Below are positions 10,895 to 13,982 of a stretch of DNA of 42,989 nucleotides, one piece after another. Under the pieces are notes generated by a model, which made no database searches, was not told where the DNA came from, and was given only the letters and a program-made list of their open reading frames with translations. The DNA is from Leptospiraceae bacterium (GTDB lineage: Bacteria > Spirochaetota > Leptospiria > Leptospirales > Leptonemataceae). Each line of letters opens with the position of its first letter. Positions within the stretch are counted from its first letter, which is position 1. The stretch covers positions 1 to 42,989 of the forward strand of contig JAOACE010000019.1 of assembly GCA_026418015.1 (NCBI GenBank), read 5' to 3'. The position numbers and the translations under genes were made by a program.

Positions 10895-12760
10895 TTAAAC
10901 ACGTTTTTCAATAAAAAGAAAGATTTCTTTTGCATAATTCTGCATTTCTTCTGGAGAAACCAATGCCTGAGAAATTCTCGTTAAATGATAGATTTGTTTT
11001 GCTAATTCTAATTTTTCTGGTTTTATTTCTTGACCTTCTGTTAGAATTATATCTGGCTTTCCTAATTTTTGTATTAAGGGATTCTTTAAGTTTAGTAACA
11101 AAGTGTGATGTTCCGGAATAGTAAATTTATCCTTCTCTCCATAAAGTACTGCTAATTCCGAAACACGTCTATACGTTTCTGGTAGAAGAATCATCGCTGG
11201 AATTTCGTCTGTTTTTAGTTGTTCTGCGCGAACAATAATTTTAGTATTGTTCAAAGCTTTTCTAAAAATATCCTCTACCCTATCTTTGAGGGTTTTAGAA
11301 TCACTATCTATGATTTTACTTTCTTTTTCGATTGCATGATCCGAAATCTCAGCATCAACCCTTACGAAATGTACATTGTGTTCTTGCATCTCCAAAAAAG
11401 AAGAAAAATGTGCATCGATCAACTTATCTAAATAAATAATTTCTATTCCTTGTTTTAATAGCAGTCGAACCGCTGGACCTTGGGTTTTTAAATCTGTCGC
11501 GTAATAGATCTTATTATCAGTTTTTGTTTTGTTGTGATCGAGATATTCCTGTATCGTTTTGAATTTTCTGTTATCTAAGTTTTCTTCTACGATGGTTTCG
11601 AAAAGCAATGCTTCTTTTGCATTTTCGTAGAATTTCGAATCCTCCATCATTCCATATTTTACGAAGGGTGCTATATCTTTCCAAATCTTCTCGTAATATT
11701 CGCGGTTGTTTTTACATTCTTCAACGAGCTTGTCAGCCACTTTTTTAACAATGTGTGTTGCTATTTTTTTGACTTCTGGATCTTGTTGTATGTAAGAACG
11801 CGAAACATTCAACGGTAATTCTGGCAAATCCAAAACACCTTTAAGTGCAGTCAAAAATTTAGGGATAATTTCTTGTGCTTCGTCTGTAACAAAAATTTGT
11901 TTGCAGAAAACTTTTACATAATTTTGGTTTAAATCCATCTCGTGTTTTAACTTAGGAAAATACAGAATGCCTTGTAGTCGAAAAGGATAATCTGTATTCA
12001 AGTGAATATAAAATAAAGGATCACTATCTAACGGATACAAATATTTATAAAAACTAAGATATTCTTCCTTCGATACTTCGTTAGGTTTTTTTAACCATAG
12101 AGGTTTTTGATAATTTACTTGTAATCCATCAAGCTTAATAGGGATAGATAAAAAATCACAATATTTACGAATAAGATTTTGAAGGGTGATTTTATCCAAA
12201 AACTCGTTTTTAGCTTCGTCGTTTAAATGTAAAATAATTTCTGTTCCTCTATTAATCCTTTCGCCTTTTCCAATAAAATATTCATCACTTCCATCGCTTA
12301 CCCAATAGACAGGTTCTGCTTCCAGTTGATAACTTCTGGTATGGATTTCTACTTTATCTGCTACCATAAAAGAAGAATAAAATCCTAACCCAAAATGACC
12401 AATTATATCCACAGAACTTTGATCTTTTAAGTATTTCTGAGCGAATTCTTGTGCACCAGAAAATGCAATTTGTGCAATGTATTTTTCTACTTCTTCTTTG
12501 GTCATTCCAATTCCATTATCAATAAAATGAAGGGTCCCTTTCTCTTTGTCGAATTTGACCTCTATAAAAAAATCTACTTGATCCGATTGATAAATTTCTT
12601 CATTTAGCATGATACGTTTTAATTTTTCGATTGCATCAAAGGCATTAGAAATCAGTTCGCGAATAAAAATTTCTTTTTCGGAATATAACCATCTTTTTAT
12701 GATGGGTAAAATATTTTGAGTATTAATACCAATCTTGCCTTTTTGTAATTGGGTTTCCAT
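10895..12760 (-). CDS. htpG: Chaperone HtpG (bacterial Hsp90)
   Basis: ATP-dependent cytoplasmic chaperone dimer that remodels stress-damaged clients together with DnaK. 621 aa, the normal length. The GHKL ATPase domain has the N-box RELISNAFDAIEKLK, DNGIGM and GHFGLGFYSSFMVADKV. The middle domain contains LPLNVSRSYIQQDPEVKKI with the conserved Arg region, and the C-terminal dimerisation domain ends IFLFIEKRV. A GTG at 12766 is also in frame, but AGGAG abuts that GTG and lies 5 bases before ATG 12760, so ATG 12760 is the start. A CIRCE-like repeat and a good promoter lie upstream and a strong terminator downstream, so it is a single-gene, stress-regulated unit. Confidence 0.97.
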   Translation of the reverse strand: METQLQKGKIGINTQNILPIIKRWLYSEKEIFIRELISNAFDAIEKLKRIMLNEEIYQSDQVDFFIEVKFDKEKGTLHFIDNGIGMTKEEVEKYIAQIAFSGAQEFAQKYLKDQSSVDIIGHFGLGFYSSFMVADKVEIHTRSYQLEAEPVYWVSDGSDEYFIGKGERINRGTEIILHLNDEAKNEFLDKITLQNLIRKYCDFLSIPIKLDGLQVNYQKPLWLKKPNEVSKEEYLSFYKYLYPLDSDPLFYIHLNTDYPFRLQGILYFPKLKHEMDLNQNYVKVFCKQIFVTDEAQEIIPKFLTALKGVLDLPELPLNVSRSYIQQDPEVKKIATHIVKKVADKLVEECKNNREYYEKIWKDIAPFVKYGMMEDSKFYENAKEALLFETIVEENLDNRKFKTIQEYLDHNKTKTDNKIYYATDLKTQGPAVRLLLKQGIEIIYLDKLIDAHFSSFLEMQEHNVHFVRVDAEISDHAIEKESKIIDSDSKTLKDRVEDIFRKALNNTKIIVRAEQLKTDEIPAMILLPETYRRVSELAVLYGEKDKFTIPEHHTLLLNLKNPLIQKLGKPDIILTEGQEIKPEKLELAKQIYHLTRISQALVSPEEMQNYAKEIFLFIEKRV

Positions 12761-12779
12761 ATTCACTCCTGATAGATTT

Positions 12780-12807
12780 TTTATAAAATTTACTAAATAT
12801 TTAGCAA
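12780..12807 (-). promoter_or_regulatory. htpG promoter (TTGCTA-16-TATAAA)
   Basis: On the minus strand TTGCTA (12802-12807) and TATAAA (12780-12785) are 16 bases apart, a sigma-70-like pair with 4/6 and 5/6 matches. The -35 box lies inside the proximal arm of the inverted repeat at 12801-12827, so a bound repressor would block RNA polymerase. The start site would fall around 12773, just before the AGGAG ribosome binding site. Confidence 0.6.
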
Positions 12808-12827
12808 TTAAAGATTGTATTTGCTAA
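12801..12827 (-). promoter_or_regulatory. CIRCE-like operator upstream of htpG (putative HrcA site)
   Basis: TTAGCAATT (12801-12809), nine bases, then ATTTGCTAA (12819-12827). The arms match each other at 8 of 9 positions. The classical CIRCE element is TTAGCACTC-N9-GAGTGCTAA. Here the outer TTAGCA and TGCTAA are perfect on both sides and the N9 spacing is exact, while the inner triplets differ. HrcA represses groE and dnaK operons through CIRCE; the position over the -35 box of htpG supports the same role here. hrcA itself is not in the window. Confidence 0.65.
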
Positions 12828-12845: not shown

Positions 12846-13982
12846 TCATTGATTTGTCAACACTTTTTTGTATAATTTTAGTGTTTCTTTTCCAGTATTT
12901 TCGTAGTGGAATTGTTGCACATGTTTTTGGTTGAATTGAGCAAAACGTTTTCTAAGCTCAGGCTCTTGAATCATTTTTTTTAAATGAAGTGCCAATGCCT
13001 CAGGATTTTGCGGAGGCGATAACAAACCACCTTTTTGATGTACGACGATTTCGGGAATTCCACCGCCTGCTGTTGCAACAATGGGAAGTCCCATAGCCAT
13101 AGCATCTAGTAAAGATGTACCAAGTCCTTCTTCCTTCGAAGACATTACAAAAACATCAAATAGATGGTATAAATCAAAGACATCGTTTCTATATCCTAAA
13201 AATAGAACTTCGTCTAATTGCAATTCGTCTTTTAAACGAAGTAAGGATGATTTTAATTCCCCATCACCAACAATCAGAAGCTTATAAGCAGGAAGGGATT
13301 CTTTTTTTAGAAGAGACATCGCTAAAAGTAAGGTTCGATGATCTTTGTGATCTACCAATGCAGCAACATTTCCTAGAATGATTTCGTTGGTAATCCCCAT
13401 AGATTTTTTTAGTTGATCTATTTTTTCTTTACTGGCTTGATTCTTAAAACGATTTAAATCAATCCCCGAGTAAACAACATGAATCTTTGATTCTGGTATA
13501 CCATCGGCAATCAAAATCTCTTTTACCTTTTGAGATATTGCAATATAAGAATCGATGAGTTCAGAAAAATATTTCTTTGAAGTTATTTGATTGATCCATT
13601 CCCACCGACTCTTTCTAATAGAAAAGTCTACTCTTCGCGAAACAAACAATTTAAAAGAATATTTTTTTCTTAATGTAAATTTTTTTGCTAATAGAGCAAT
13701 ACTATGTGCTCGCGCAGTATGGGCATGAAGAACATTTATCTGATGTTTTATGATAAACTCAGACAATTTATTGGCAGAGAATATATCCCATTCTCCCAAC
13801 ACTCTTAACGGAAAAACAGCAATTTCTTCTTTTTTGCAACGATCTTCTAGAACAGAATTTGGATAGCAACAAACATATTGTTGTACATCTTTTTGTGTTT
13901 TTAAAAACTGGGCTAAATAAAGGGTTTGTTGTTCTCCTCCCCGCCAACCTTTTGTGGGATTTAAGTGTAAGACGCGAATCAT
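12846..13982 (-). CDS. GT4-family glycosyltransferase
   Basis: 378 aa. The N-terminal domain MIRVLHLNPTKGWRGGEQQTLYLAQFL has the acceptor/donor Gly-Gly loop (residues 13-19), and LHAHTARAHSIALLA is typical. VVYSGIDLNRF marks the domain linker. The C-terminal domain has ILGNVAALVDHKDHRTLL, LLIVGDGELKSSL, VLFLGYRNDV and SSKEEGLGTSLLDAMAMGLPIVATAGGGIPEIV. The second acidic residue of the usual E-x7-E is Asp, which is common in this subgroup. The frame is open upstream to 14225, but that part overlaps the sugar kinase gene in another frame and has no family similarity. ATG 13982 overlaps the kinase stop as ATGA, giving tight coupling. Probably lipopolysaccharide or capsule sugar addition; the sugar is not deducible. 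Confidence 0.9.
   Translation of the reverse strand: MIRVLHLNPTKGWRGGEQQTLYLAQFLKTQKDVQQYVCCYPNSVLEDRCKKEEIAVFPLRVLGEWDIFSANKLSEFIIKHQINVLHAHTARAHSIALLAKKFTLRKKYSFKLFVSRRVDFSIRKSRWEWINQITSKKYFSELIDSYIAISQKVKEILIADGIPESKIHVVYSGIDLNRFKNQASKEKIDQLKKSMGITNEIILGNVAALVDHKDHRTLLLAMSLLKKESLPAYKLLIVGDGELKSSLLRLKDELQLDEVLFLGYRNDVFDLYHLFDVFVMSSKEEGLGTSLLDAMAMGLPIVATAGGGIPEIVVHQKGGLLSPPQNPEALALHLKKMIQEPELRKRFAQFNQKHVQQFHYENTGKETLKLYKKVLTNQ

Follow-up and report, generated by a model that had tools for sequence, protein, structure and literature searches.

An HrcA operator of the CIRCE type probably controls htpG in a Leptospira-related genus

In HrcA/CIRCE class I regulons of the Bacillus subtilis type, the operons hrcA-grpE-dnaK-dnaJ and groES-groEL stand under promoters that carry the inverted repeat TTAGCA-N15-TGCTAA, and htpG of B. 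subtilis is under a different, positive control. The repressor HrcA is stimulated by GroE (PMC8533110). In Clostridium acetobutylicum, an HrcA site has been predicted for htpG (CAC3315), with support from expression data (PMC3828012), and in Geobacter sulfurreducens htpG has been assigned to sigma-32 (PMC545781). The motif derived from HrcA ChIP-seq in W. chondrophila, TAGCA-N15-TGCTAA, indicates that the outer blocks suffice; the accessible part of that report gives groES/EL, dnaK, grpE, hrcA and a few others as targets and does not mention htpG (PMC4989314). Our literature search, for which subscription journals were mostly beyond reach, found no paper on the genus described here.

The window, by which we mean the whole stretch of 42,989 nucleotides analyzed, belongs to the genome of a Leptospiraceae bacterium (G000) and contains an htpG gene with a CIRCE-like repeat upstream. 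The gene was identified by the NCBIfam HtpG equivalog profile (599.7 bits, cut-off 371) and by Pfam HSP90, and its product is 88% identical to HtpG of Leptospiraceae bacterium KatS3mg129. The locus comprises the following features:

10895..12760, minus strand: htpG (Hsp90), with its ATG at 12760
12766..12770, minus strand: AGGAG, probable ribosome-binding site of htpG, read from the sequence
12801..12827, minus strand: probable CIRCE-type HrcA operator of htpG
12846..13976, minus strand: group-1/4 glycosyltransferase, the upstream gene, outside the switch
12855..12860, minus strand: TTGACA, probable -35 element, 27 nt upstream of the operator and within the last codons of the glycosyltransferase gene

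The plus strand at 12801-12827 reads TTAGCAATT-AAAGATTGT-ATTTGCTAA, which corresponds to TTAGCAAAT-ACAATCTTT-AATTGCTAA on the htpG strand, 40 nt from the ATG. A sequence-only reading of this DNA had claimed perfect outer blocks with CIRCE spacing and inner triplets that depart from consensus, and both points are borne out: TTAGCA and TGCTAA are perfect and set in the 9-N9-9 geometry of CIRCE, and the inner triplets are AAT and ATT, not the typical CTC and GAG. The true symmetric arm is 7 bp long (TTAGCAA/TTGCTAA), with a paired ninth position in addition. From base composition, a perfect TTAGCA-N15-TGCTAA is expected about 0.005 times per window, 0.34 times per genome and about 1e-5 times per 100 bp before a given gene, and the three found genome-wide lie far above the genome expectation. 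We also scored the window with a matrix built solely from the hrcA and groES sites of the genus, the htpG sites being excluded. The htpG site obtained the top score, 23.0 bits; the runner-up reached 13.4 bits, and 20.5 bits was the highest value in 100 Markov windows.

We compared the region upstream of htpG in the four genomes that represent the genus (G000-G003), at least some of which are metagenome assemblies. The repeat is kept by these close relatives: it is perfect in all four and lies 19-41 nt from the start codon, and GGAGG-type ribosome-binding sites likewise precede htpG in the three other genomes. Between pairs of genomes, identity is 12/12 in the outer arms, 6-11/25 in the 25-nt upstream flank and 2-5/9 in the 9-nt spacer. 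The upstream neighbor is a glycosyltransferase gene in G002 and G003 as well and an aminotransferase gene in G001, where the site is kept despite this different upstream gene. Judged by these alignments, the htpG operator is a site conserved against a diverged background. A repeat that arose by chance, or that was inherited without a function, is extremely improbable: although some 0.3 perfect sites are expected anywhere in an AT-rich genome of 2.9 Mb, only about 1e-5 are expected in the 100 bp before one gene, and the repeat is perfect in four genomes despite diverged flanks and spacer, an altered distance to the ATG and, in one of them, a different upstream gene.

The arms would be able to form a 7-bp stem 40 nt before the ATG, and the repeat might then act chiefly in RNA, either as a thermometer-like hairpin in the 5′ leader, with an effect on stability or translation, or as a terminator of the upstream gene. 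We regard this as very unlikely, since shuffled sequence folds just as well (z -0.21), the stem leaves the ribosome-binding site uncovered, and our search gave no terminator-like site. Moreover, what is conserved in the arms is the letters themselves and not merely the pairing, and these letters agree with the hrcA and groES operators.

These sister operators were located by scanning the whole 2.91-Mb assembly of G000 for TTAGCA-N15-TGCTAA, which yielded exactly three perfect sites, before htpG, groES and hrcA only. Besides the htpG site, the operators are:

C16:140210: perfect site preceding groES-groEL
C16:140294: one-mismatch site, second groES operator, 84 bp from the first
C27:75072: perfect site preceding hrcA-grpE-dnaK-dnaJ, with dnaJ recognized by translation

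The groES and hrcA/dnaK operators of the genome share the form of the htpG site. The genome does not lack the repressor gene either: hrcA was detected by profile search at 127 bits (cut-off 22) and encodes the single HrcA-family protein found. Another repressor with a CIRCE-like specificity might use the htpG site, but the chance of this is extremely small, given that the same site stands before hrcA itself and groES, which are classical HrcA targets, and that searches for the HrcA family and sigma-32 returned one HrcA-family protein and no sigma-32 above the curated cut-off.

As candidates for further HrcA targets, we considered the sites with at most one mismatch. The second groES site apart, these are no commoner than matches to a reversed control pattern (10 versus 13), and we therefore treat them as chance. 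The reversed control, AATCGT-N15-ACGATT, has four perfect matches in G000 (C6:25188, C17:174389, C17:337723 and C24:5325) versus about 0.3 expected, at the same base composition. In three of the four genus genomes (G000, at C16:140210-140320, L012 and L053; G002; and G003), groES has a pair of HrcA operators spaced by about 83-84 bp, an arrangement that could permit looping or double repression. The TTGAC element lies between the paired operators, 33-35 nt before the gene-proximal one.

The repeat thus has the arms and spacing of an HrcA operator, in a genome with hrcA, with the same operator at the classical targets groES and hrcA and with a location at a chaperone promoter that is conserved in 4/4 genomes of the genus. 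We consider it highly probable (about 0.9) that it is an HrcA operator, the genus form of CIRCE, which would control htpG together with the groE and dnaK operons. The extension of the HrcA regulon to Hsp90 in this lineage, which the sequence-only reading had put forward, appears strongly supported. According to the mechanism we propose, HrcA, aided by free GroE, would occupy the operator at normal temperature and block htpG transcription from the promoter with TTGACA 27 nt upstream, the operator lying over the transcription start. Under heat or protein stress, unfolded protein would titrate GroE and HrcA would be released, such that htpG would be induced jointly with groES-groEL and hrcA-grpE-dnaK-dnaJ. 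HrcA binding, repression and the start site at htpG are inferred, and the proposed release of HrcA through GroE is taken from work on other species.

The promoter assignment draws on the whole genus. TTGAC occurs 25-33 nt upstream of the htpG operator in all four genomes; over the htpG, groES and hrcA promoters of the genus taken together, it is present in 12/12 at a distance of 25-35 nt, measured at groES from the gene-proximal operator, where chance would give about 0.02 per site. On the htpG strand, we recognized no clear -10 element. Because the conserved upstream TTGAC and the usual promoter spacing place the start at the first bases of the operator, transcription probably starts within it; in C. 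jejuni, too, HrcA footprints extend over the start site (PMC7464140). An alternative promoter proposed earlier, TTGCTA-16-TATAAA, does exist as a string on the minus strand of G000, but it is not conserved, and the conserved TTGAC lies upstream of it. As a promoter it is impossible in G001, where the gap between operator and ATG is only 19 nt and the ribosome-binding site occupies its place.

The htpG operator had also been described as diverged, which is correct relative to the canonical consensus but not relative to its own genome, where the groES and hrcA sites are equally shifted. Half-sites of the genus at groES and hrcA read TTAGCAAT(C/T/A/G), and the second groES site reads TTTGCAATT. 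At position 7 of the half-site, all HrcA sites of the genus have A in place of C, and the groES and hrcA operators likewise lack CTC. Since all HrcA sites of the genus share this shifted inner triplet, the htpG operator is not diverged as regards its own regulator; it is best read as an ordinary local operator, though no other in the set scores as weakly. In G000 and G003, the htpG sites have the lowest matrix scores of the genus (23-24 bits vs 25-31 bits), and repression of htpG may for this reason be weaker. As in W. chondrophila, specificity would lie in the outer blocks and the inner triplets would be free (PMC4989314). A scan with the strict TTAGCACTC consensus would miss all HrcA sites of this genus.

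The shift at position 7 can be set beside the sequence of HrcA, for which a sequence search retrieved one solved structure, 1stz. When Ala or Gly precedes the P-H of the wing (genus g1, G008, g2 and G015), position 7 is always A or G in both half-sites of the hrcA operator. A Ser at this place goes mostly with CTC, the exceptions being G007, G009, G011 and G014, which have A or G in at least one half-site. Our reading of the HrcA tree is that Ser was replaced by Ala or Gly beside the wing of the wHTH domain about twice in the family, and the co-occurrence with position 7 is suggestive of a link between the HrcA wing and the form of the operator. It is possible, though we would not favor it, that repressor and operator drifted together in this clade, with Ser changing to Ala/Gly and position 7 from C to A/G at all sites, and that htpG was recruited afterwards. 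If true, a heat-shock repressor would here have changed its specificity along with its whole regulon, and cases in which this can be traced are rare.

Outside the genus, the htpG operator is absent from the 350 nt searched in each of 23 further genomes of the order with htpG, sister genus included (at most 9/12 outer bases). The best matches, 6-9/12, were considered as possible diverged operators and taken as chance level. In eleven class-mates, the best match before htpG is at most 10/12, a value reached in G030 and G035. Across a 198-genome sample of the phylum, no perfect site near htpG was found outside the genus among the matches listed, contigs and coordinates being compared by eye. In the HrcA tree, the sister of the genus is G008 (99% SH-aLRT), in which TTGACA precedes htpG and the operator is absent. 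Because the site is present in 4/4 genomes of the genus and in 0/23 others of the order, including the sister genus, htpG very probably joined the HrcA regulon on the branch to this genus.

Compared with the B. subtilis-type regulon, whose two operons are targets here as well, this genus differs in that htpG is also a predicted target and in the A for C at half-site position 7. The implied novelty of HrcA at htpG holds for this genus but is reduced by the precedent in C. acetobutylicum, where htpG is likewise assigned to the HrcA regulon beside groESL and hrcA-grpE-dnaKJ (PMC3828012). The two belong to unrelated phyla, and because the relatives sampled here showed no such site, the gain in this genus was probably independent. 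Membership of the HrcA regulon thus seems to be set lineage by lineage: the usual core in the order is groES plus hrcA, to which genera variously add htpG (this genus), hsp20 or clpB. What this adds to a well-known system is modest: the mechanism is the established one, and the practical gain is that the regulon can be predicted better in a Leptospira-related lineage that has received little study.

Elsewhere in the class, members of other families have a perfect CIRCE site before hsp20 (G024 and G026, by similarity also G029) or before clpB-like genes (G024 and G038; loci L126, L127, L130, L078 and L132 for the two groups together). These sites are likely lineage-specific additions to the HrcA regulon. 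Sites of CIRCE geometry whose position 7 is A or G also occur at G018:C48:8376 (L124), G004:C29:97612 (L122) and G015:C256:44927 (L119). An ORF that looks patatin-like directly follows the L124 site; at L122 and L119, no convincing chaperone gene emerged from the ORF scan, and L122 may be groES in a shifted frame. Finally, the HtpG proteins of this order (window 10895-12760, L013-L022) score about 140-195 bits against Pfam HSP90; in the other families of the class, HtpG mostly reaches 370-460 bits. Because the scores of this order are so far below the others, they suggest two distinct HtpG types in Leptospira-like bacteria.
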